A stretch of DNA of 64,000 bases. It comes from Streptomyces sp. NBC_00236. Its GTDB lineage: Bacteria > Actinomycetota > Actinomycetes > Streptomycetales > Streptomycetaceae. Under the pieces are notes generated by a model. It made no database searches. It saw nothing but the letters and a program-made list of their open reading frames with translations, and had not been told where the DNA came from. Both the position numbers and the translations under genes were made by a program. Below are positions 10,743 through 49,818 of this stretch, piece after piece. Every line of letters begins with the position of its first letter. Position 1 is the first letter of the stretch. The stretch is from positions 2,108,001 through 2,172,000 of the forward strand of contig NZ_CP108100.1 of assembly GCF_036195045.1 (NCBI RefSeq), written 5' to 3'.

Positions 10743-12311
10743 ATGCCCGCTCAGCACACCCGACGCGCCGTGCTCGGCGCTTCGATCGCCCTTGCCGGTA
10801 CGGGAGTTCTCGCCGCCTGCGCCGGCCGCGACGCCGCCGCGGACCACTCCGCCATGAACCACCCCGCCCCGTCCGGCACCACCGTCCCGGAGGGCTACGT
10901 CTCCCCCGACGGCCCGGAGGTCGCCGCGGCCGAGCAGCGGCGGGGCACCGGCCCCGCGCACAAGGTCACCCTGACCGCGACCCCGTCCCGGCTCGACCTC
11001 GGCGGCGGGCACACCGTCAGCTCGTGGGCGTACGGGGACCGGCTCCCCGGGAAGGAGATCCGGGTCACCGCGGGCGACACGCTCGCCCTCTCCCTCGCCA
11101 ACCACCTGCCGCAGCCCACCTCGCTGCACTGGCACGGACTCGCCCTGCGCAACGACATGGACGGGGTGCCCGGGCTGACCCAGCGGGCCGTCGGGGCGGG
11201 GGCGGACTTCACCTACCGGTTCACGGTGCCGGACCCCGGCACGTACTGGTTCCACCCGCACTCGGGCGTCCAGCTGGACCGCGGGCTCTACGCGCCGCTG
11301 ATCGTGGACGACCCGAAGGAACCCCTCGGCTACGACAAGGAGTGGATCGTCGTCCTGGACGACTGGGTCGACGGCGTGGACGGCTCCACCCCCGATGCCG
11401 TGCTCCAGGAACTCACCGGGGGCAGCGGGCACAGCGGGCACGCCATGCAGTCGACGGTCTCGCCCGCGAGCGGCGGGCCCTCGCGGATGCTGATGGGCGC
11501 CACCAGTGAGCTGCTGGGCGGCGACGCCGGCGACGTGGACTATCCGTACTACCTGGTCAACGGCCGCGTGGCCGAGGACCCTTCCGCCTTCACCGCACGG
11601 CCGGGCGACCGGATCCGGCTGCGGATCATCAACGCGGGCGGCGACACCGCCTTCCGCGTCGCGCTCGGCGGCCACCGGATGACGGTGACGCACACCGACG
11701 GCTTCCCGGTCCGGCACACCACGACCGACGCGCTGCTGATCGCGATGGGTGAGCGGTACGACGTGCTGGTCACCGCCGGGGACGGGGTGTTCCCGCTGAC
11801 CGTGCTGGCCGAGGGCAAGAAGGCCTCGGCGATGGCCCTGCTGCGGACCGGAGGCGGTGCGGCGCCCGGCGCGTCCGTGCGGCCGAAGGAGCTGGACGGC
11901 GAACTGGTGACGGCCGACCGGCTGTCCCCGGACGCCTCCGTGGCCCTGGCCGCGCGCGAACCCGACCGGACGGTGCGGATGCGGCTGACGGGCTCCATGG
12001 AGGCGTACGACTGGGCCTTCGACAGGAAGCCGTACACCGCCGACCAGCGTCATCCGGTGAAGGCCGGGGAGCGGGTCCGGATGGAGTTCCACAACCCGAC
12101 CGCGATGTGGCACCCGGTGCATCTGCACGGGCACACCTTCGCGCTGGCCGGGGGCGCGGCCGGGGCCCGTAAGGACACCGCGATCGTGCTGCCCCGGCAG
12201 ACGCTGACCGTCGACTTCGACGCGGACAACCCGGGTCTGTGGATGCTCCACTGCCACAACCTGTACCACGCGGAGGCGGGCATGATGACGGTCCTCGGCT
12301 ACCGCCGCTGA
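10743..12311 (+). CDS. Multicopper oxidase, Tat-exported lipoprotein
   Basis: 522 residues. The N-terminus is a twin-arginine signal (HTRRAVLG) ending in a lipobox (VLAAC), so the enzyme should be exported folded and lipid-anchored. Three cupredoxin domains follow. All copper motifs are present: HWHG and HPHS early, then HPVHLHGHTF and HCHNLYHAEAGM at the C-terminus, giving the type 1 and trinuclear sites. Met/His-rich stretches (DHSAMNH, GHSGHAM) suggest a cuprous oxidase or CueO-like role in copper tolerance. The ATG at 10743 is preferred; a GTG at 10731 is possible. Confidence 0.93.
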   Translation: MPAQHTRRAVLGASIALAGTGVLAACAGRDAAADHSAMNHPAPSGTTVPEGYVSPDGPEVAAAEQRRGTGPAHKVTLTATPSRLDLGGGHTVSSWAYGDRLPGKEIRVTAGDTLALSLANHLPQPTSLHWHGLALRNDMDGVPGLTQRAVGAGADFTYRFTVPDPGTYWFHPHSGVQLDRGLYAPLIVDDPKEPLGYDKEWIVVLDDWVDGVDGSTPDAVLQELTGGSGHSGHAMQSTVSPASGGPSRMLMGATSELLGGDAGDVDYPYYLVNGRVAEDPSAFTARPGDRIRLRIINAGGDTAFRVALGGHRMTVTHTDGFPVRHTTTDALLIAMGERYDVLVTAGDGVFPLTVLAEGKKASAMALLRTGGGAAPGASVRPKELDGELVTADRLSPDASVALAAREPDRTVRMRLTGSMEAYDWAFDRKPYTADQRHPVKAGERVRMEFHNPTAMWHPVHLHGHTFALAGGAAGARKDTAIVLPRQTLTVDFDADNPGLWMLHCHNLYHAEAGMMTVLGYRR

Positions 12312-12331
12312 CCTGCCACCTGGCGGGCCCC

Positions 12332-12387
12332 GGGAGGGTGCCGGCGATTCCGGCCGCGCTCGCGGCGCAGATCTCCGGCACCCTCCC
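12332..12387 (+). terminator. Long-stem terminator between multicopper oxidase and nadE
   Basis: GGGAGGGTGCCGG (12332-12344) pairs perfectly with CCGGCACCCTCCC (12375-12387); the 30-nt loop can form its own GC hairpin. ACTTTT follows shortly after. Confidence 0.75.
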
Positions 12388-12447
12388 CGCCACTTTTCGC
12401 CCGGCCCGCCAGGACATCGCGTCAGTCAGACGATTACACTGGGCGGC

Positions 12448-14202
12448 GTGCCTCAACTACGCCTCGCACTGAATCAGATCGACTCGACCGTCGGCGACCT
12501 CGCCGGCAACACCGAGTCGATCCTCCACTGGACCCGGCACTCCGCCGAACAGGGCGCCCACCTGGTGGCGTTCCCCGAGATGGTGCTGACCGGATACCCC
12601 GTCGAGGACCTGGCCCTGCGGTCGTCCTTCGTCGAGGCGTCGCGGGAGGCGCTGCGTGCGCTCGCCGCGCGCCTGGACGCCGAGGGCTTCGGGGAACTCC
12701 CGGTCGTCGTCGGCTACCTCGACCGCTCCGAGTCCGCCGCGCCGCGCTACGGCCAGCCCGCCGGATCGCCGCGGAACGCCGCCGCGGTGCTGCACCGCGG
12801 ACGGATCGCGCTGAACTTCGCCAAGCACCACCTGCCCAACTACGGCGTCTTCGACGAGTTCCGGTACTTCGTGCCGGGCGACTCGATGCCCGTCGTACGG
12901 GTGCACGGCGTCGATGTGGCGCTCGCGATCTGCGAGGACCTCTGGCAGGACGGCGGCCGGGTGCCGGCCGCGCGTGCCGCCGGGGCCGGGCTGCTGCTGT
13001 CGATCAACGCCTCGCCGTACGAGCGGGACAAGGACGACACCCGGCTGGAACTGGTCCGCAAGCGGGCCCAGGAGGCCGGCTGCACGACCGCGTACCTCGC
13101 GATGATCGGCGGCCAGGACGAGCTGGTCTTCGACGGGGACTCGATCGTCGTCGACAAGCAGGGCGAGGTCATCGCCCGTGCGCCGCAGTTCGCCGAGGGC
13201 AGCGTGATCCTGGACCTCGACCTGCCGGCCGCCTCGCCCGAGGCGCCCTCGGGCGTGGTGAACGACGGGCTGCGGATCGACCACGTGGTCCTCTCCGAGA
13301 AGCCGCTGCCGGCGTACGAGGCGGAGCTGGCCGGAGGGTACGCGGAGCGGCTCGACGACGACGAGGAGCTGTACTCGGCGCTCGTCGTGGGCCTGCGGGC
13401 GTACGCGGCGAAGAACGGCTTCAGCAGTGTGCTGATCGGGCTCTCCGGCGGGATCGACTCGGCGCTGGTCGCCGCGATCGCCTGCGACGCGCTGGGCGCG
13501 CAGCACGTGTACGGCATCTCGATGCCGTCGAAGTACTCCTCGGACCACTCCAAGGGCGACGCGGCCGAGCTGGCGCGGCGTACCGGGCTGAACTTCCGGA
13601 CCGTACCGATCGAGCCGATGTTCGACGCGTACATGGGGTCGCTGGGGCTCACCGGGCTCGCCGAGGAGAACCTGCAGTCGCGGCTGCGCGGCACGATGCT
13701 GATGGCCGTGTCCAACCAGGAGGGCCAGATCGTCCTGGCTCCGGGCAACAAGTCGGAGCTGGCGGTCGGTTACTCGACGCTGTACGGGGACTCCGTCGGC
13801 GCGTACGGGCCGATCAAGGACGTCTACAAGACGTCGGTCTTCCGGCTGGCGAAGTGGCGCAACCGGGCGGCGGAGGAACGCGGGCAGATCCCGCCGATCC
13901 CGGAGGCCTCCATCACCAAGCCGCCGAGCGCGGAGCTGCGGCCGGGTCAGGTCGACACGGACTCGCTGCCCGACTACGACGTGCTGGACCGGATCCTGGA
14001 GATGTACGTCGACCGGGACCAGGGTCTCGACGCGATCGTCGCGGCCGGGTTCGACGCGGCACTGGTGGCGAAGACGCTGCGGATGGTGGACACGGCGGAG
14101 TACAAGCGGCGGCAGTACCCGCCGGGCACGAAGATCTCGCCCAAGGGCTTCGGCAAGGACCGGCGGCTGCCGATCACGAACCGGTGGCGCGAGTCCGGCT
14201 GA
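12448..14202 (+). CDS. nadE: Glutamine-dependent NAD+ synthetase
   Basis: 584 residues, the two-domain NadE form. It amidates nicotinic acid adenine dinucleotide to NAD+ using ATP and glutamine. The N-terminal nitrilase-like glutaminase (about 1-260) shows its Glu-Lys-Cys triad in FPEMVLTGYP, FAKHHLPNYGVFDE and ICEDLW. The C-terminal ATP-pyrophosphatase domain carries the P-loop LSGGIDSALVAAI and the NAD-synthetase motif LAPGNKSELAVGY. It starts at a GTG with no strong ribosome binding site. It appears to be a single-gene unit between a terminator upstream and the repeats downstream. Confidence 0.97.
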   Translation: MPQLRLALNQIDSTVGDLAGNTESILHWTRHSAEQGAHLVAFPEMVLTGYPVEDLALRSSFVEASREALRALAARLDAEGFGELPVVVGYLDRSESAAPRYGQPAGSPRNAAAVLHRGRIALNFAKHHLPNYGVFDEFRYFVPGDSMPVVRVHGVDVALAICEDLWQDGGRVPAARAAGAGLLLSINASPYERDKDDTRLELVRKRAQEAGCTTAYLAMIGGQDELVFDGDSIVVDKQGEVIARAPQFAEGSVILDLDLPAASPEAPSGVVNDGLRIDHVVLSEKPLPAYEAELAGGYAERLDDDEELYSALVVGLRAYAAKNGFSSVLIGLSGGIDSALVAAIACDALGAQHVYGISMPSKYSSDHSKGDAAELARRTGLNFRTVPIEPMFDAYMGSLGLTGLAEENLQSRLRGTMLMAVSNQEGQIVLAPGNKSELAVGYSTLYGDSVGAYGPIKDVYKTSVFRLAKWRNRAAEERGQIPPIPEASITKPPSAELRPGQVDTDSLPDYDVLDRILEMYVDRDQGLDAIVAAGFDAALVAKTLRMVDTAEYKRRQYPPGTKISPKGFGKDRRLPITNRWRESG

Positions 14203-30567: not shown

Positions 30568-31704
30568 ATGCGAGCCGTTCGTCTCTCCGTCGTCACCGCT
30601 GCCGCCACCGTGGCCGCCCTGACCGCTGTCACGGGCTGCGCCGAGAAGAGCGACGGCAAGGGCGAGGGTGCCGTCCAGGTCGTCGCCAAGGACGACTCCT
30701 GCGAGGTCTCGAAGACGGAGCTGCCGGCCGGGCACGTCGAGCTGGCCGTGGAGAACAAGGGTTCCAAGGTCACCGAGGTCTACGTCCTGTTCCCGGACGA
30801 CCGCATCGTCGCCGAGCGCGAGAACATCGGCCCGGGCACCAAGGCCACCATCACCGCCGAGATCAAGGCCGGTTCGTACGAGATCGCCTGCAAGCCCGGC
30901 ATGAAGGGGCACGGCATCCGGCAGAAGATCGAGGTGAGCGGCGGCAAGGCGGCCAAGCGCAGCCCGGAGATGGACAAGGCCGTCGCCGCCTACCGCACCT
31001 ACGTCCAGGCGCAGGCCGACGAGACGCTGCCGAAGGTCAAGGTCTTCACGGACGCCGTCGCCGCCGGTGACATCGAGGCCGCGAAGAAGGCGTACGCCGA
31101 CTCCCGTATCGGCTGGGAGCGCACCGAGCCGGTCGCCGAGTCGTTCGGCGACATCGACCCGAAGGTCGACGTCCGCGAGGACGGCCTGGAGGACGGCCAG
31201 AAGTGGACCGGCTGGCACCGCCTGGAGAAGGCGCTGTGGCAGGACAAGAAGCTGGGCGCCGAGGAGAAGGCCCTCGCGCCGACCCTCTACAAGGACCTGC
31301 TCGACTGGCAGAAGCGCGTCGGCACGGCGGAGATCACCCCGACCTCGATGGCCAACGGCGCCAAGGAACTCCTCGACGAGGTCGCGACCGGCAAGGTCAC
31401 CGGTGAGGAGGAGCGCTACAGCCACACCGACCTGGTCGACTTCAAGGCCAACGTCGAGGGCGCCGAGAAGTCCTACCAGCTGCTGAAGGCGATCGCCACG
31501 AAGAACGACGCGGCGCTGACCTCCACCCTGGACAAGCGGTTCGCGGAGCTGAACACGCTGCTGGACCAGTACCGCACGGACAAGAGCTCCTACGTGTTCA
31601 CCTCGTACGAGAAGGTCGGCAAGGCGGACCGCAAGGAGCTGTCGGACGCGGTCAACGCGCTCGCCGAGCCCCTGTCGCAGCTCGCCGCCGCGGTGACGAA
31701 GTAA
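30568..31704 (+). CDS. efeO: EfeO iron-uptake lipoprotein
   Basis: 378 residues. A signal peptide ends in a lipobox (LTAVTGC). Next comes a cupredoxin-like domain (about 35-130, with CEVSKTELPAG and YEIACKPGMKGHG), then a peptidase-M75-like imelysin domain with the metal motif HRLEKALW. EfeO captures iron outside the membrane and hands it to the EfeU permease. GTGGAG precedes the ATG. It is the first gene of efeO-efeB-efeU, under two iron boxes. Confidence 0.94.
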   Translation: MRAVRLSVVTAAATVAALTAVTGCAEKSDGKGEGAVQVVAKDDSCEVSKTELPAGHVELAVENKGSKVTEVYVLFPDDRIVAERENIGPGTKATITAEIKAGSYEIACKPGMKGHGIRQKIEVSGGKAAKRSPEMDKAVAAYRTYVQAQADETLPKVKVFTDAVAAGDIEAAKKAYADSRIGWERTEPVAESFGDIDPKVDVREDGLEDGQKWTGWHRLEKALWQDKKLGAEEKALAPTLYKDLLDWQKRVGTAEITPTSMANGAKELLDEVATGKVTGEEERYSHTDLVDFKANVEGAEKSYQLLKAIATKNDAALTSTLDKRFAELNTLLDQYRTDKSSYVFTSYEKVGKADRKELSDAVNALAEPLSQLAAAVTK

Positions 31705-31727
31705 CCGGCCGGAAAGAGGTTGTGGGC

Positions 31728-32993
31728 ATGACCGAGCACGCCGGAGAGAACCAGCAGGAGCCCGCGGGCGCCCCCTCGCGGCGCGCTCTGCTCGGCTGGG
31801 GCGGCGCCGGGCTCGCGCTCGGCGCGGCCGTGGCGGGCGGCGCCGTGGCCGCGGTGCGCTCCGGCGACACCGCCGTGACGGCCGCGGACAGCGGTGCGGC
31901 GGTGCCGTTCCACGGTGCGCACCAGGCGGGGATCGCCACGGCCGTCCAGGACCGGCTGCACTTCGCCGCGTTCGACGTGACGACGAAGGACCGGGCGGAA
32001 CTGGTCGCGCTGCTCAAGGAGTGGACCCGGGCGGCCGAGCGGATGACGGCCGGTCACGCGGTCGGCGACGGCGCCTACGGGGGCCCGGCCGAGGCGCCGC
32101 CGGACGACACCGGCGAGGCCCTGGGGCTCAAGCCGTCCCGGCTGACGCTGACGATCGGCTTCGGCCCCTCGCTGTTCGCCAAGGGCCGGTTCGGCCTGGA
32201 GGACAGGCGTCCGGACGCACTCGTCGAGCTGCCGAAGTTCCCGGGCGACAACCTCGACCGGGCCCGCAGCGGCGGCGACCTGTGCGTCCAGGCGTGTGCG
32301 GACGACCCGCAGGTGGCGGTGCACGCCATCCGCAACCTCGCCAGGATCGGCATGGGCCGCACCGCGATCCGCTGGTCGCAGCTGGGCTTCGGCAAGACGT
32401 CCTCGACGACACCGGACGCCCAGACCCCGCGCAACATGATGGGCTTCAAGGACGGCACCCGGAACATCTCCGGCACCGACACCGCCGCCCTCGACGAGCA
32501 CGTGTGGGTGGGCCGGAAGGACAACGCCGGCTGGATGACCGGAGGTTCGTACCTCGTGGCCCGGCGCATCCGGATGCACATCGAGACGTGGGACCGGACC
32601 GGGCTGCAGGAGCAGGAGGACGTCTTCGGCCGCGACAAGGGCGAGGGCGCCCCGGTCGGCAAGGCGAAGGAGCGCGACGAGCCGTTCCTGAAGGCGATGC
32701 TGCCGACCGCGCACGTACGGCTGGCGCACCCCGACACCAATGACGGGGCGACGATCCTGCGGCGCGGCTACTCCTTCACCGACGGCACGGACGGCCTGGG
32801 CCGGCTCGACGCCGGACTGTTCTTCCTCGCCTACCAGCGCGACACCCGCACGGCGTTCGTACCGCTGCAGCGGCGCCTGGCGGCGCACGACGCACTCAAC
32901 GAGTACATCCAGCACGTGGGTTCGGCGCACTTCGCCGTCCCGCCGGGCGTCCGCGACAAGGACGACTGGTGGGGCCGGGCGCTGTTCTCGTAA
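31728..32993 (+). CDS. efeB: EfeB dye-decolourising haem peroxidase, Tat-exported
   Basis: 421 residues. The N-terminus has a twin-arginine signal (SRRALLGWGGAGLALG). The body is a DyP-type peroxidase with the hallmark GFKDGTRN and a haem-ligand region near TAHVRLAHP. In Efe systems it oxidises ferrous iron or frees iron from haem outside the cell membrane. It follows efeO by 23 bp. The ATG at 31728 or a GTG six bases upstream could serve; the purine-rich AAAGAGG lies before both. Confidence 0.94.
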   Translation: MTEHAGENQQEPAGAPSRRALLGWGGAGLALGAAVAGGAVAAVRSGDTAVTAADSGAAVPFHGAHQAGIATAVQDRLHFAAFDVTTKDRAELVALLKEWTRAAERMTAGHAVGDGAYGGPAEAPPDDTGEALGLKPSRLTLTIGFGPSLFAKGRFGLEDRRPDALVELPKFPGDNLDRARSGGDLCVQACADDPQVAVHAIRNLARIGMGRTAIRWSQLGFGKTSSTTPDAQTPRNMMGFKDGTRNISGTDTAALDEHVWVGRKDNAGWMTGGSYLVARRIRMHIETWDRTGLQEQEDVFGRDKGEGAPVGKAKERDEPFLKAMLPTAHVRLAHPDTNDGATILRRGYSFTDGTDGLGRLDAGLFFLAYQRDTRTAFVPLQRRLAAHDALNEYIQHVGSAHFAVPPGVRDKDDWWGRALFS

Positions 32994-33023
32994 CGGGACT
33001 CGAAGCGGAAAGGGAACCGAAAC

Positions 33024-34007
33024 GTGTTCAGTAACTTCCTGATCGGCCTGCGCGAGGGCCTTGAGGCCAGCCTGGTCGTCTGCATTCTCATCGCGTACCT
33101 GGTGAAGACCGGCAACCGGCACAAGCTGCTGCCGATCTGGATCGGTGTCGCGATCGCCGTCGTCGTCAGCCTGGGCTTCGGCGCCGGTCTCGAGTTCGGT
33201 TCGCAGGAGATGACGTTCAAGGCCCAGGAGGCGCTGGGCGGTTCGCTGTCCATCGTGTCGGTCGGCCTGGTCACCTGGATGGTCTTCTGGATGCGCCGTA
33301 CCGCGCGGCACCTGAAGTCGGAGCTGCACGGAAAGCTCGACGCGGCGCTCGCGATGGGCACCGGCGCCCTGGTCGCCACGGCGCTGCTCGCGGTGGGCCG
33401 TGAGGGCCTGGAGACCTCGCTGTTCGTGTGGCGTGCGGTGCACGCGGCGGACGACGGCTGGCATCCGATGATCGGTGCGGTGCTGGGCATCGCCACGGCC
33501 GTCGTGCTGGGGTGGCTGTTCTACCGGGGCGCGCTGAGGATCAACCTGGCGAAGTTCTTCACCTGGACCGGCGGCATGCTGGTCGTCGTCGCGGCGGGTG
33601 TCCTCGCGTACGGCGTCCACGACCTGCAGGAGGCCGAGTTCCTCGGCGGGCTGCAGAACCGGGCGTTCGACATCAGCGCCACGATTCCGCCCGACAGCTG
33701 GTACGGCACGCTGCTGAAGGGCACGTTCAACTTCCAGCCCGATCCGACCGTTCTCCAGATCACGGTGTGGGCGCTGTATCTGATCCCCACACTCGCGCTG
33801 TTCCTCTCCCCGGTAGGGTTCGGACGGTCAGAGGGCCCCGCAGCGGGTGCGACGGATCAGAAGGCGCGGAAAGCAACGGATGAGAAGCCTGAGGCCGGTT
33901 CGGCTGGCGACGGGGCTCGCGACAGCGACGGTGCTGAGCATGACGGCGAGCGGGTGCGTGACGGTGCACGGCGAGCTGGAAGTCGTCCGGGCGGCGACGC
34001 GGTCTGA
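33024..34007 (+). CDS. efeU: EfeU/FTR1 iron permease
   Basis: 327 residues, about seven membrane helices. Both iron-permeation motifs are present: REGLEAS near residue 10 and REGLETS near 134. The last 60 residues (from about 268) are a hydrophilic Asp/Gly/Arg-rich tail with no family similarity, and their final 128 bases overlap the next gene in another frame. The GTG at 33024 follows AAAGGGA. It completes efeO-efeB-efeU, which imports ferrous/ferric iron across the membrane. Confidence 0.93.
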   Translation: MFSNFLIGLREGLEASLVVCILIAYLVKTGNRHKLLPIWIGVAIAVVVSLGFGAGLEFGSQEMTFKAQEALGGSLSIVSVGLVTWMVFWMRRTARHLKSELHGKLDAALAMGTGALVATALLAVGREGLETSLFVWRAVHAADDGWHPMIGAVLGIATAVVLGWLFYRGALRINLAKFFTWTGGMLVVVAAGVLAYGVHDLQEAEFLGGLQNRAFDISATIPPDSWYGTLLKGTFNFQPDPTVLQITVWALYLIPTLALFLSPVGFGRSEGPAAGATDQKARKATDEKPEAGSAGDGARDSDGAEHDGERVRDGARRAGSRPGGDAV

Positions 34008-45115: not shown

Positions 45116-45156
45116 CACGGGGGAATGCCCCGGACCGCGGCGCGGTTGTGCCGCAC

Positions 45157-46041
45157 ATGACTGATCTTCCCGGGCCCGAACTCCTCCGCTACACCGCCTT
45201 CTCCGCCGACCCGGAGGGCGGTAATCCGGCCGGAGTCGTGCTGGACGCCTCCGGTATGGACGAGGCGGGCATGCTCGCCGTCGCGGCAGAGGTCGGGTAC
45301 AGCGAGTCGGCGTTCCTGACCGGCCGGACCGAGGCGTCGGAGCCCGGTGCGCGCGGTTACGCGATCCGCTACTTCAGCCCGAAGGCCGAGGTCCCGTTCT
45401 GCGGTCACGCCACCGTGGCCACCGCCCTGGCCCTCGCCGAGCGGGACGGCCCCGGCGACCTGGAGTTCGCCACCGCGGCCGGCCCGGTGCCCGTCACCGT
45501 CGCCCGCGAGGGGGCCGAACTGCGGGCGACCCTCACCAGCGTGGAGCCGCACGTCACGACGGCCGCCGCACAGGACGTCGCGGAGGCGCTGGCCGCGCTG
45601 GACTGGCCGGCCACCGACCTCGACCCGGCCCTGCCGCCCCGCATCGCCTACGCGGGCGCCCGTCATCTGGTGCTGGCCGCCGCGAGCCGTGAGCGGCTGG
45701 CCGCGCTCTCCTACGACTTCGCGCGTCTCGAAGCGCTGATGCACCGGCTGGACCTCACCACGGTCCAGCTGGTGTGGCGCGCTTCGGACGCCGTCTTCCA
45801 CGTCCGCGACCCGTTCCCGGTCGGCGGTGTGGTCGAGGACCCGGCGACGGGCGCGGCGGCCGCCGCCTTCGGCGCGTACCTGCGCGCCCTGTCGCTGGTC
45901 CCCGCGACCGCCTCGCTGACCCTGCATCAGGGTGAGGACATGGGCCGCCCCGGCACGCTGGCCGTCACCCTGCGGGCGGGCGACGCACGGGTGCGGGTGA
46001 GCGGGACGGGGACGCGTATCCCGGACCGGGCGGGCGCCTGA
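45157..46041 (+). CDS. PhzF family isomerase-like protein (full length)
   Basis: 294 residues, the normal family length. Opening LRYTAFSADPEGGNPAGVVL, catalytic Glu in VGYSESAFLTG, the phosphate or carboxylate-binding FCGHATVATALAL, and the second-domain mirror motif EDPATGAAAAAFGAYL. The substrate is unknown. It is clearly paralogous to the short PhzF at 29246 but too divergent to be a recent duplicate. ATG 45157 is preferred over a GTG nine bases upstream. Convergent with the epimerase gene, 36 bp apart. Confidence 0.9.
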   Translation: MTDLPGPELLRYTAFSADPEGGNPAGVVLDASGMDEAGMLAVAAEVGYSESAFLTGRTEASEPGARGYAIRYFSPKAEVPFCGHATVATALALAERDGPGDLEFATAAGPVPVTVAREGAELRATLTSVEPHVTTAAAQDVAEALAALDWPATDLDPALPPRIAYAGARHLVLAAASRERLAALSYDFARLEALMHRLDLTTVQLVWRASDAVFHVRDPFPVGGVVEDPATGAAAAAFGAYLRALSLVPATASLTLHQGEDMGRPGTLAVTLRAGDARVRVSGTGTRIPDRAGA

Positions 46042-46077: not shown

Positions 46078-47010
46078 TCAGCGGCTGAGGAAGTTCCGGT
46101 ACCAGGGCGCGTGCTGTGCGAAGGACGTCCGGAAGTCCGGGCCCGGGGCCCAGCCGAGGTCCTCGCCCACCCGTTCGTCGGCGAACCAGTGGTCCACGGT
46201 GAGCATGTCGAAGTGGTGCGTGGCGTACGGGACGCCGGCCAGCCGGGTGCGGGCCTCGTCCAGTGCGATCTCCGTGCCCGCCCAGGGCAGCCCGAGCTCG
46301 CCGAGCACCGTGGACAGCAGGTCCGAGCAGGTCACCGGCTCGGGGTGGTTGACGTGGTAGACGCCGGTCGGCGGCTTCGGGGCGAGCGCCGCCCCGAGCA
46401 GTGCGCGGCCCAGGCTCTCCACGTCGATCAGCGAGTGGCGGGCGTCGCAGCCGGCCGGTGCCGCCGACAGGTACCTCAGCAGGGCGGCCAGCCCGGGGAT
46501 CGCCCACCGGTCCCCCGCCCCGTGCACGATGTGCGGGCGCAGGACGGCTCCCCCGGCCGCCAGGACGTGCTGTTCGGCGGCGACCCGGGTCAGGCTGGTG
46601 GCGGAGACGGGGGCGGTCTCGGCGCCTCCGGGAAGCAGCGCGGTGAAGGGGCCGCGGCCGTAGACGGAGGCGGTGCTCAGCAGGACGATCCGGCCGACTC
46701 CGCTGCGTACGGCCTCGTCGACCAGCGCACGGGTTCCGTGGTCGTTGACGGTCCGGGCGGTCTGCTCGTCGGAGCCGACCCGGGAGGCGCAGTGGATCAC
46801 TGCGTCGATGCCCTCGCAGCTGTCGCGCAGCGATCCGGGGTCGGCGAGGTCCCCGTACACCGTCTCGCAGTGGAGTCCGTCCGCCGGGACGTCTAGGGCG
46901 GTCCGGTGGGTCATCAGGCGCAGCCGGATCCCGGGGGTCGCGCGGGCGGCGGCGGCCACCCGGCTGCCGATGAAGCCGGTGGCGCCGGTGATGAGGATGC
47001 GGGGCGTCAT
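46078..47010 (-). CDS. NAD-dependent epimerase/dehydratase in the GBL locus
   Basis: 310 residues, extended SDR. Cofactor loop ILITGATGFIGSRVAAA, a Ser in LLSTASVYGRG, and the substrate region RPHIVHGAGDRWAIPG. The usual YxxxK is not obvious: after SVYGRG the expected Tyr-Lys appears replaced (SATSLTRVAAEQHVL), so the catalytic set may be altered. Its ATG overlaps the afsA-type stop (ATGA), so it is made together with the butyrolactone synthase. The likely role is reduction or modification of the signal precursor, as with reductases next to other AfsA homologues. Confidence 0.85.
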   Translation of the reverse strand: MTPRILITGATGFIGSRVAAAARATPGIRLRLMTHRTALDVPADGLHCETVYGDLADPGSLRDSCEGIDAVIHCASRVGSDEQTARTVNDHGTRALVDEAVRSGVGRIVLLSTASVYGRGPFTALLPGGAETAPVSATSLTRVAAEQHVLAAGGAVLRPHIVHGAGDRWAIPGLAALLRYLSAAPAGCDARHSLIDVESLGRALLGAALAPKPPTGVYHVNHPEPVTCSDLLSTVLGELGLPWAGTEIALDEARTRLAGVPYATHHFDMLTVDHWFADERVGEDLGWAPGPDFRTSFAQHAPWYRNFLSR

Positions 47011-48083
47011 GAAAGGTCCGTTCTGACATCGCCGGGCCCGGCCGGGTGGAGTTCCGGCGAGCGGAGGGTGCAGGTGAATGCCGGTTCGCCGTCCTGAACG
47101 GCCCGTATGAACACTCCGGCGGGCGCGAGGGCGTCGTCGCCGTCGGCCGGGAGCACCGTGGCCTCGATCCGGCAGGGGCGGTCCAGCTCGACGTACTGGA
47201 GGAAGTCGGCCTGCATCGCCGTCGGCAGGAAGGCCGAGCCGGTGGCCGCGTGTGCGGCCTGCCGGGCCGCCTCCAGCAGCAGGATGCCCGGTACGTGATC
47301 GTTGGGGCGGCCGAAGAGTGTCGGATGCCGGGTGTCGAGCCGCAGGAGCCAGGTGCCGGGGTCCGTGCCGGGCGACAGGACGACGTCGTTCTCGGAGGTC
47401 CTGCCGACCGTGCGCGGTGCGACGGCGGGCAGGAGGGGTATCGGGGTGCCGAGGACGGCGCTGCGGTGTCCGCGCAGCCGCTGGTACGCCGCAGCCGAGG
47501 TGCAGCTGATCCGGCCGCCGCCGGTGGCGAGCACGGTGCCGCGGCGGTGCAGGAGGAGTTCGATGTGCATGGAGCCGAGGCTCCGGCCCCGGCGGCGGAT
47601 CCGGGAGCAGGACACGTCCACCGTGATGTCCCACGGGTCCTCGTTCAGCTCCAGCCGCTCGGACGCGGAGGTGTACCTCAGCTCCCACATCACGAAGGCG
47701 TCGCCGACCGGCACACCGAACTGGGCGTGGGCGATCAGCATCGTCGTCTGCCGCATGGTCTCGGCTATGAGCAGGGGGTCCTGATGGCTGCCGACCGGGG
47801 CGAAGAAGCGGTGGGACCGCGGCCAGTGGGCCGCCACCGAGAACTGGGTGTCGGTGAGCCGGGTGAGCCCGGTGGGGAAGACGTCGAGCGGGTCGGTGCG
47901 GTGGACCAGCTGTCTCAGCCGGTCGGGTGAGCCCGCTCTGCGGCCGGGTTCGTCCCCGGCCGGGGCCCCGGTCTCCTCCGGGCTGCCGGAGAAGGCCTCG
48001 GCGCGGCCGGCACCCGTGGAGTGCCCGGCCCGCTCGCCGCTCTCCACCGACATCGAAGCGCTGCGTGAGGTGAGCTGAACCAT
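47007..48083 (-). CDS. AfsA/ScbA-type gamma-butyrolactone signal synthase
   Basis: 358 residues. AfsA-family enzymes join a beta-ketoacyl-ACP to dihydroxyacetone phosphate, the first committed step of A-factor-type signals. Two hotdog-like repeats each carry a Glu-x-x-Arg-Gln motif: AETMRQ with Glu 108, and LEAARQ with Glu 271, in equivalent positions to residues known to matter in ScbA. GRPNDHVPGILLLEAARQ is the strongest signature. A 50-residue low-complexity N-terminus makes it longer than AfsA; ATG 48053 is an alternative start. It is divergent from the receptor gene and coupled to the downstream epimerase. Confidence 0.92.
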   Translation of the reverse strand: MVQLTSRSASMSVESGERAGHSTGAGRAEAFSGSPEETGAPAGDEPGRRAGSPDRLRQLVHRTDPLDVFPTGLTRLTDTQFSVAAHWPRSHRFFAPVGSHQDPLLIAETMRQTTMLIAHAQFGVPVGDAFVMWELRYTSASERLELNEDPWDITVDVSCSRIRRRGRSLGSMHIELLLHRRGTVLATGGGRISCTSAAAYQRLRGHRSAVLGTPIPLLPAVAPRTVGRTSENDVVLSPGTDPGTWLLRLDTRHPTLFGRPNDHVPGILLLEAARQAAHAATGSAFLPTAMQADFLQYVELDRPCRIEATVLPADGDDALAPAGVFIRAVQDGEPAFTCTLRSPELHPAGPGDVRTDLS

Positions 48084-48131
48084 GAAGTTCCCCCAGGAGG
48101 ATCCGAGTCAAAGGGCCGAGCCGCCCCGCAG

Positions 48132-48157
48132 TAAGATACTGACAGCCCGGTTTTCCT
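48132..48157. promoter_or_regulatory. ARE-like operator for a butyrolactone receptor
   Basis: The 26-bp site begins TAAGATACTGAC and ends CCCGGTTTTCCT. It fits the autoregulatory-element pattern as I recall it (A-rich half with ATAC-nnAC, then CGGT plus a T-rich half) at 13 of 16 defined positions. It is almost exactly midway between the synthase start (48083) and the receptor start (48210), so it could control both. Confidence 0.65.
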
Positions 48158-48209
48158 TTCCAGCCAACCCCCTGTGGCACCAACCACGCCACCAGTTAGA
48201 GAGAAGCTG

Positions 48210-48872
48210 ATGGCACAGCAGGCGCGCGCGATCCAGACCCGCAGGTCGATCCTGGTGGCGGCCGCCGACGTGTTCGACGAGCGCGGCTACAGCAGCGCGA
48301 CCATCAGCGAGATCCTGGCGCGTGCGGGGGTGACCAAGGGCGCGCTGTACTTCCACTTCGCCTCGAAGGAGGACCTCGCGCTCGGGGTGATGGACATACA
48401 GCTGCACAGCGATCCGCTGCCGCCCCAGCTCACGAAGCTCCAGGAACTGGTGGACCAGGGCATGCTCCTGGCCTACCGTCTGCGTCATGAGCCACTGGTC
48501 CGGGCCAGCGTGGGACTGGCCATGGACCAGGCCGTGGAGGGCCTCGACCGCGGCACACCGTTTCGCGGCTGGATAGACCGGCTCGAACACCTCCTGGTGG
48601 CCGCCAAGGGGCAGGGCGAGCTGCTGCCGCACGTGGATCCGGGCGAGGCCGCGGAGATGCTGGCGGGATCCTTCTCGGGCATCCAGGTGATGTCCCAGGT
48701 CCTGTCCAACCGCGAGGACCTCGGCCGGCGGATCTCGGTCCTGCTGCACTATGTGCTCCCGAGCCTCTCGACGCCGGCCGTTCTGGCCACGCTGGACATG
48801 GCCGAAGATCGCGGTGAGCGTCTGCTCCGCAGCCTCGAAACCGTACCCAGCCAGGCCGGCGCCCCCAACTGA
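48210..48872 (+). CDS. ScbR/ArpA-type gamma-butyrolactone receptor, TetR family
   Basis: 220 residues. The N-terminus is diagnostic for the receptor subgroup: RAIQTRRSILVAAADVFDER, ISEILARAGVTKGALYFHF, SKEDLALGVMD. The ligand domain contains the PLVRASVGLAMDQ region and a Trp (FRGWIDRLEHL) in the position used by receptors to contact the lactone. It should repress through the ARE-like site and leave DNA on binding the signal. GAGAAG precedes the ATG. Its adjacency to the synthase supports a true receptor rather than a pseudo-receptor. Confidence 0.92.
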   Translation: MAQQARAIQTRRSILVAAADVFDERGYSSATISEILARAGVTKGALYFHFASKEDLALGVMDIQLHSDPLPPQLTKLQELVDQGMLLAYRLRHEPLVRASVGLAMDQAVEGLDRGTPFRGWIDRLEHLLVAAKGQGELLPHVDPGEAAEMLAGSFSGIQVMSQVLSNREDLGRRISVLLHYVLPSLSTPAVLATLDMAEDRGERLLRSLETVPSQAGAPN

Positions 48873-49000: not shown

Positions 49001-49378
49001 ATGTCCGTCCGCCGTGTTGTCCCCAACATCGTGACCGGCACGGGTGACGGAACCGGGGACGCCTCCGGAGCCATGCGCGCCAACGCCGCCTTCTACGGGC
49101 TCCTGGGCCTCGACGAGGTCATGAACCAGGGCTGGATCATGACGCTCGCCTCGCCCTCCCGCCCCACGGCCCAGATCAGCATCATGACCGCCGACAGGAC
49201 CGGCCCCGTCACGCCCGATCTGAGCGTGGAGGTGGAGGACGTGGACGCGGTGTACGCGGCGGTGGTGCGCAGCGGCGCGGAGATCGTGTACGGCCCGGCC
49301 GACGAGGAGTGGGGCGTGCGCCGCTTCTTCGTACGCGATCCGAACGGGCGCGTCATCAACGTCCTGAGCCACGCCTGA
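49001..49378 (+). CDS. VOC family (glyoxalase-like) protein
   Basis: 125 residues, two beta-alpha-beta-beta-beta units of the vicinal oxygen chelate fold: ANAAFYGLLGLDEVMNQGW and VEVEDVDAVYAAVVRSGAEI, ending FVRDPNGRVINVL. An extra Gly/Asp-rich insert (GTGDGTGDASG) follows the first strand, which is unusual. AGGAG lies just upstream of the ATG. Possible roles are antibiotic binding or an isomerase; the substrate cannot be told. Confidence 0.87.
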   Translation: MSVRRVVPNIVTGTGDGTGDASGAMRANAAFYGLLGLDEVMNQGWIMTLASPSRPTAQISIMTADRTGPVTPDLSVEVEDVDAVYAAVVRSGAEIVYGPADEEWGVRRFFVRDPNGRVINVLSHA

Positions 49379-49408: not shown

Positions 49409-49818
49409 GGCAGACGAGTCGGGCTGTACGCCGGGTTCTGTCGCCCGGTCGCCTCGCGGCGGCCGGGGAGACGGCCATCCATCTAGGACCGGCATTGCTG
49501 CCGGTCTCGTGCGGTCTACCCGCGAACTCGGGCGGGCCGCCCTCGAACGTTCGCGCAGAGCCGTCTTGCGACGGCTCCTCTTGACCTTGCTCCGGGTGGG
49601 GTTTACCTAGCCGCCTGAGTCGCCTCAGACGCTGGTGGTCTCTTACACCACCGTTTCACCCTTACCGGGGACCGAAGTCCCAGGCGGTCTGTTTTCTGTG
49701 GCACTGTCCCGCGGGTCACCCCGGGTGGCCGTTAGCCATCACCCTGCCCTGTGGAGCCCGGACGTTCCTCGGGAGGGTCCGAAGATCCTCACGCGGCCGT
49801 CCGCCCGGCTCGTCTGCC
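49409..49818 (-). ncRNA. rnpB: RNase P RNA (class A)
   Basis: About 410 nt. The 5' and 3' ends pair (CAGACGAGCCGGGCG with CAGCCCGACTCGTCTG) as helix P1. Conserved core segments on the minus strand include GAGGAACGTCCGGGCTCC, the ACAGAAA segment, GGTAAGGGTGAAACGG, AGATGGATGGCCGT and ACAGAACCCGGCGTACAG. It is the catalytic RNA that trims tRNA 5' ends with the RnpA protein. Ends are set by P1 and are accurate to a few bases. Confidence 0.97.

Follow-up and report, generated by a model that had tools for sequence, protein, structure and literature searches.

The locus described here lies in a 64 kb stretch of the Streptomyces sp. NBC_00236 genome (the whole stretch is referred to below as the window) and comprises three genes of the gamma-butyrolactone (GBL) type, situated between genes for a PhzF-family protein and a VOC protein, near rnpB. 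An AfsA/ScbA-type autoregulator synthase gene (47007..48083, minus strand) is adjoined by a gene for a reductase of the NAD-epimerase/dehydratase type in the GblE/JadW2 position (46078..47010, minus strand), and a gene for a ScbR/JadR3-type GBL receptor of the TetR family (48210..48872, plus strand) is divergent from the synthase. A putative autoregulatory element (ARE), or operator, GAAAACCGGGCTGTCAGTATCT (48134..48155, minus strand), proposed from its conservation and position, lies between the divergent genes. To judge from these sequences, the locus is probably a genuine and complete GBL-type locus. In what follows L numbers denote loci and G numbers genomes, G000 being the genome of the window.

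The initial annotation had recognized an AfsA-type synthase with both Glu-x-x-Arg-Gln motifs, a translationally coupled epimerase/reductase and a divergent ScbR-type receptor, and all three identifications were confirmed. The synthase scores 338.9 bits against the NF041195 ScbA_BarX model (curated cut-off 200) and has two AfsA (PF03756) stretches, with ETMRQ at residue 108 and EAARQ at residue 271; two E-x-x-R-Q motifs are a hallmark of ScbA/BarX-type synthases. A PDB sequence search with the synthase gave no match. The reductase matches Pfam Epimerase (71.5 bits) and 3Beta_HSD (58.6 bits), and its ATG overlaps the synthase stop by 4 bp at 47007–47010, an overlap that, judged by aligned ends, recurs in only a few of the 15 complete loci considered below (five in all: the window, L035, L036, L115 and L117), the two ends being 3–75 bp apart in nine. 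PMC5735094 describes the biochemical step of JadW2/GblE as unknown. A distant second AfsA-domain protein is encoded elsewhere in the genome (L118, G000 3575730–3576659); it has both E-x-x-R-Q motifs and scores 158 bits, below the ScbA cut-off, and its neighbours are short-chain dehydrogenase/reductase (SDR), major facilitator superfamily (MFS) and two type II-like ketosynthase-domain genes. It would thus seem to serve biosynthesis in its own cluster and not to be a second GBL synthase.

The receptor scores 222.8 bits against NF041196 (curated cut-off 150). Its start is more likely to be ATG 48210 than GTG 48174, because the ATG is invariant in an alignment of 15 sequences and indels occur between the two positions. 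The closest solved relative is AvaR1 (E 3.8e-54), followed by 5xaz, a 'gamma-butyrolactone receptor protein' (3.7e-48), and CprB (3.4e-24). With a pI of 5.5 and Trp121 the protein fits the description of genuine receptors in PMC7480387, namely an acidic to neutral pI and a conserved Trp, and lacks the basic pI usual for pseudo-receptors; this is supportive evidence only, since the Trp occurs in pseudo-receptors too and PMC7480387 lists exceptions to the pI rule. The receptor shares 58–63 % identity with the divergent receptor of jadomycin-like (jad-like) loci (L120–L127, L134 and L135) but 28–36 % with the second TetR copies of such loci where at least 118 residues align, although short local matches to those copies (at most 57 residues) reach 49 %. 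Moreover, its gene adjoins that of its own synthase and is read in the opposite direction. By pairwise identity the receptor would therefore be the JadR3-type counterpart and not a pseudo-receptor of the ScbR2/JadR2 type, and the pI and the identities to JadR3-position receptors place it outside the pseudo-receptor class that the initial annotation had raised as a concern. A second ScbR-family regulator of G000 (L119, 4728379–4728990; 172 bits, over the cut-off) is 28–30 % identical to the locus receptor, has no AfsA match nearby and adjoins a SARP-like (BTAD) regulator and non-ribosomal peptide synthetase (NRPS) genes. We considered this gene as a target of the locus receptor and rejected it, the ARE matches in its 20 kb being at chance level (1 found, 1.16 expected).

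Between the divergent genes a 27 bp core, GAAAACCGGGCTGTCAGTATCTTACTG, is matched at 25–27 of 27 positions in all 15 complete cassettes, and its first 22 bases lie 51–72 bp upstream of the synthase ATG and 55–76 bp upstream of the receptor ATG. Protection of the Streptomyces filipinensis sfbA promoter has been reported at −63 to −90 (PMC7480387), and an ARE (AREIV) between jadR3 and jadW1 (PMC7357120). Relatives with jad-like loci, L121 among them, carry the related operator-like element GAAAACCGCGCTGTACGTATTCTA and close variants. The element of the window matches an ArpA-type consensus at 14 of 22 positions.

The flanking genes encode the PhzF-family protein (45148..46041, plus strand; Pfam PhzC-PhzF 227.6 bits), the VOC/glyoxalase-like protein (49001..49378, plus strand; Pfam Glyoxalase 30.6 bits) and, as rnpB, the class A RNase P RNA (49411..49812, minus strand; Rfam RF00010 296.3 bits). 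A Pfam scan of 20 open reading frames (ORFs) selected by third-position GC content between 30.5 and 62.8 kb of the window, a subset of the ORFs there, found no polyketide synthase (PKS) or NRPS families; four ORFs had no family, and the other 16 belonged to iron uptake, peroxidase, transport, phosphatase, SDR and housekeeping families. Beyond the immediate neighbours, the families found among scanned ORFs include Gfo/Idh, PhoD, SDR, MFS, iron-uptake, RNB, YaaA, RNase H and NIF3. At a cut-off of E ≤ 1e-10 about 63 kb separate the locus from the genome's closest condensation-domain match, a weak one of 63 bits, and about 193 kb from its closest ketosynthase match. That the locus is distant from any detected biosynthetic cluster, as had been noted for the surrounding 15 kb, is thus upheld. 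In the same region (30568–34007) genes for an imelysin/cupredoxin protein, a DyP peroxidase and an FTR1 permease are consecutive and form an EfeUOB-like iron uptake set.

A survey of 295 genomes of the genus gave 199 with a synthase at E ≤ 1e-40, G000 included. Among the matches listed, a synthase at least 63 % identical to that of the window occurs in seven genomes and in each of them at this place; the locus is complete in five (G000, G093, G201, G225 and G188) and reduced to the synthase in two (G193, and G138 on split contigs). A scan of named genomes gave 19 loci, comprising 11 complete at this place, six synthase-only and two elsewhere. With each genome counted once (L036 is G093 and L053 is G138) and the window added, there are 15 complete and seven synthase-only loci. 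In 15/15 complete loci no more than 319 bp separate the PhzF gene from the reductase, and in 13/15 there is a VOC match on the far side of the receptor. Two loci with interrupted matches were retained in this count: in L038 the reductase (11062–11999) matches in two frames, residues 1–128 and 120–310, and in L043 the PhzF gene (12147–12643) matches only as two pieces, residues 4–112 and 238–293, in two frames; each may be a damaged gene or an assembly error.

Sixteen further genomes (L098–L113) were not a random sample, having been taken as the top PhzF matches (about 80 % or more) without a near synthase. Fourteen of them (L099–L105 and L107–L113) have neither a synthase nor a VOC match at this place, with rnpB in the stretch in 10 of the 14. 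In L098 the PhzF and VOC genes are 179 bp apart, and in L106 they are separated by 1.5 kb of other, unannotated sequence, in both cases without the cassette. Because the VOC gene is missing in the 14, entry of the cassette beside an existing VOC gene and entry together with it cannot be told apart. The initial annotation had proposed comparing relatives for the presence of these genes; in close relatives the locus proved widespread at this place but not universal, since the seven synthase-only loci, L098 and L106 have lost it in whole or in part. A search of the papers available for a GBL locus beside rnpB in Streptomyces found none, and of the listed papers on butyrolactones and Streptomyces atratus, the species of carrier L041, none is by its title about this locus; a published description may nonetheless exist.

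The synonymous divergence (pS) of the cassette genes resembles that of the flanks, the values for the window against L117 being 0.20 for PhzF, 0.15 for the reductase, 0.22 for the synthase and 0.19 for the receptor, and the gene trees and the flank tree share their main clades. In the flank tree the synthase-only branch adjoins the clade of the window (support 0.91). All trees were computed by FastTree from the stretches that tblastn matched and not from curated full proteins; L044 and L053, which have no PhzF match in the stretch, are in no flank tree, and G138 appears in the flank trees as L131, labelled as without a synthase, its synthase being on another contig. A recent horizontal arrival of the cassette in this strain, one of the suggestions of the initial annotation, would agree with its rarity in the genus, with the 14 of 16 PhzF-picked genomes that have neither cassette nor VOC gene, and with L098 and L106, which have the VOC gene without the cassette. 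However, the place and gene order are common to 15 genomes, and this together with the flank-like synonymous divergence and the shared main clades makes a recent arrival highly improbable. One gain in an ancestor followed by vertical descent is the simplest account of the flank-like synonymous differences and the shared clades; an older single acquisition by the ancestor of the clade is likely, and it is in this sense that we infer the direction of gene gain.

The receptor is under strong purifying selection. In comparisons of the window with 13 relatives the ratio of nonsynonymous to synonymous divergence (pN/pS) is 0.03–0.19 for the receptor, 0.24–0.55 for the synthase, 0.21–0.53 for the reductase and 0.19–0.34 for PhzF, the receptor value being the lowest of the compared genes in 13/13; it is also the lowest in five of seven other pairs. 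L053, which is cut by a contig end and lies on the same G138 contig as L132, was left out of these pairs, and L133, which duplicates the genome of L036, was not used. Invariant columns number 161/220 in the receptor (15 sequences), against invariant ungapped fractions of 49 % in the synthase (15 sequences), 54 % in the reductase (14), 69 % in PhzF (14) and 65 % in Gfo/Idh (15), the L038 reductase and the L043 PhzF being left out as too short. Such constraint fits a receptor with fixed DNA targets, which are putative, and a fixed ligand.

Neighbouring genes were annotated for three relatives, L121, L130 and L051. L121 and L130, compared with the window, are 49–51 % identical in the synthase, 56 % in the reductase and 61–63 % in the receptor, and the reductase is 54–56 % identical to the same-position gene of jad-like loci in general. 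Their gene order is receptor, synthase, reductase, short-chain dehydrogenase, second TetR match, response regulator, biotin carboxylase, cyclase and ketosynthase, as in the jadomycin cluster. L051, placed beside the core clade by both the reductase tree and the receptor tree, has aromatic hydroxylase, SnoaL-like, ABM and deoxysugar genes nearby and is angucycline-like. The window locus resembles the jadR3-jadW1-jadW2 arrangement of the Streptomyces venezuelae jadomycin type, in which the receptor is divergent from the synthase and an epimerase-type reductase follows the synthase; unlike jadomycin-type clusters it has no jadW3, pseudo-receptor, response regulator or polyketide genes and sits among unrelated genes. 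By sequence likeness it looks like a trimmed, stand-alone version of a jadomycin/angucycline-type GBL module, for which the clusters would presumably be the source and not the recipient. L121, L130 and L051 lie in clusters. The premise of the initial annotation that GBL loci usually accompany antibiotic clusters has an exception in S. venezuelae ATCC 15439, which reportedly retains jadR3-W1-W2-W3-R2 without the jad biosynthetic genes (PMC7357120). That strain is like the window in having a GBL regulatory set without a polyketide cluster, and unlike it in retaining jadW3 and the pseudo-receptor (PMC7357120). The gblA-gblE-gblR clusters of Rhodococcus (PMC5735094) consist of the same three gene types; their surroundings are reported not to be conserved, whereas those of the window clade are, and in most of them gblR lies between gblA and gblE, which differs from the order seen here.

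The same comparisons bear on the signal itself. The closest solved receptor, AvaR1, has the butenolide avenolide as its ligand, so that the synthase might make an SRB-type butenolide or a furan and not a gamma-butyrolactone. We think this rather unlikely: in operon architecture the locus comes nearest to jadR3-jadW1-jadW2, a system whose signal, SVB1, PMC6930871 describes as a GBL identical to SCB3, and no P450 family was found among the neighbouring ORFs scanned.

A wider role, in which the receptor directly controls several distant genes (of development or of distant clusters) in the manner of A-factor, has several points in its favour. The synthase of this locus is the only one over the cut-off in 9/15 carriers, the receptor is much more conserved than its own synthase, no linked cluster was detected, and there is the precedent of the AfsA/ArpA system of Streptomyces griseus, a GBL switch that reaches distant genes via a cascade (PMC6930871). 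Control of distant genes, the case in that system, is for the window locus a possibility only. The genome contains no second operator copy at ≤ 3 mismatches, although pattern searches of this kind overlook diverged AREs. Under a looser ARE pattern (≤ 1 mismatch) the sole other site common to several carriers was ATAGACCACCCGGTCAGTTTTT, present in four of five cassette genomes, and we rejected it as a receptor target. Its extended form (≤ 3 mismatches) occurs in 19/21 further genomes, and since 18 of these 19 have no complete cassette (G225 being the exception) the site is generic. The suggestion of a distant or global regulator was consequently not borne out and stays unproven; we give it a little less than an even chance. 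In S. griseus arpA, unlike the receptor gene of the window, is not known to adjoin the synthase gene, afsA. At G000 7558183–7558204 (L145) there is a highly conserved and apparently intergenic element, GATAGACCACCCGGTCAGTTTTTGG, that is present in 19/21 further Streptomyces genomes.

The seven synthase-only loci (L044, L046–L049, L053 and L114) have an open synthase frame, cut by a contig end in one, with both motifs in the six complete ones, and lack the receptor, the reductase and the operator at this place. Upstream of all seven, the operator core finds no match above chance level, 33–194 of 200 shuffles doing as well as the best one. In the four genomes searched in full (G193, G138, G177 and G098; best paralog 50–53 %) there is no receptor ortholog, and none was found within the stretches examined of the remaining synthase-only loci; nor was a reductase found within the locus stretches (5.7–20.9 kb) examined of genomes without the receptor at this place. 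The pN/pS of the synthase in this branch, 0.35–0.69 (15 pairs, six loci), is somewhat above that of the cassette synthase. In the operator's stead a conserved block around CCGGGGCARACTGGCC lies upstream of the orphan synthase in all seven loci, and is possibly a site for another regulator. Another canonical synthase over the cut-off is present in 9/9 genomes without the receptor here (seven synthase-only and two empty) compared with 6/15 carriers (one-sided Fisher p 0.004, a value to be taken with caution, at least seven of the nine belonging to one branch, so that there are about two independent events, and several genomes being drafts). This suggests, without amounting to proof, that another GBL system displaced this one in the sister branch. 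Expanded into a tentative scenario, which we think less likely than not, the second system would have displaced an ancestral fixed-place switch in that lineage, and receptor, reductase and operator would have been lost after its arrival. The synthase would have stayed in frame behind a new promoter region, where it would either supply signal to the receptor of the second system, having none of its own, or be a repurposed enzyme.

The same losses could be taken to mean that the window locus is a private relic, regulating only itself and heading for loss as in the sister branch, and the reduction in seven loci, the absence from L098 and L106, the single strong operator and the split reductase of L038 are all in keeping with this. 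Nevertheless, the low pN/pS of the receptor and the near-invariant operator would indicate that the interaction of receptor and DNA has been kept, and we regard the relic explanation as unlikely.

Our working hypothesis, which we hold to be quite probable, is that the locus is a self-contained autoregulator switch of the GBL class, related to jadomycin/angucycline-type modules, that an ancestor of this Streptomyces clade gained once beside the PhzF gene and passed on by vertical descent. The AfsA-type synthase would, as its family suggests, use a glycerol derivative and a fatty-acid derivative to make a butenolide or butyrolactone precursor, and the epimerase-type reductase would act on that precursor. 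A receptor dimer bound to the one intergenic operator would repress until the signal accumulates and then be released. We infer this chemistry, the repression and any targets beyond the locus's own promoters.

A number of points weigh against this hypothesis. A search for promoter-like sites between 47900 and 48400 gave none. The operator-like element is a poor palindrome, and an ArpA-consensus score of at least 14/22 is reached at nine places in the window, the operator included, so that the operator claim rests on position and conservation. The want of a second operator copy leaves the receptor with no named target. The flank tree joins L045/L050 with L041–L043 (support 1.0), which the reductase (0.999) and receptor (0.979) trees do not, and in two of the seven other pairs a flank gene has a lower pN/pS than the receptor (Gfo/Idh 0.124 against 0.178 in L038–L115, and PhzF 0.073 against 0.106 in L041–L042). 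Finally, parts of the locus are dispensable, as its loss or reduction in L106 and in one branch shows, together with the two-frame reductase of L038, unless that is an assembly error.

GBL systems have mostly been read as satellites of antibiotic clusters, and a stand-alone copy inherited vertically, in which receptor and operator hardly vary, would offer a tractable minimal circuit of three genes and one operator, the receptor and operator of which could serve as a small biosensor pair. The synthase-only sister branch shows how GBL circuits fall apart and, if displacement by a second system did take place there, would represent a natural experiment in the rewiring of bacterial hormone circuits.

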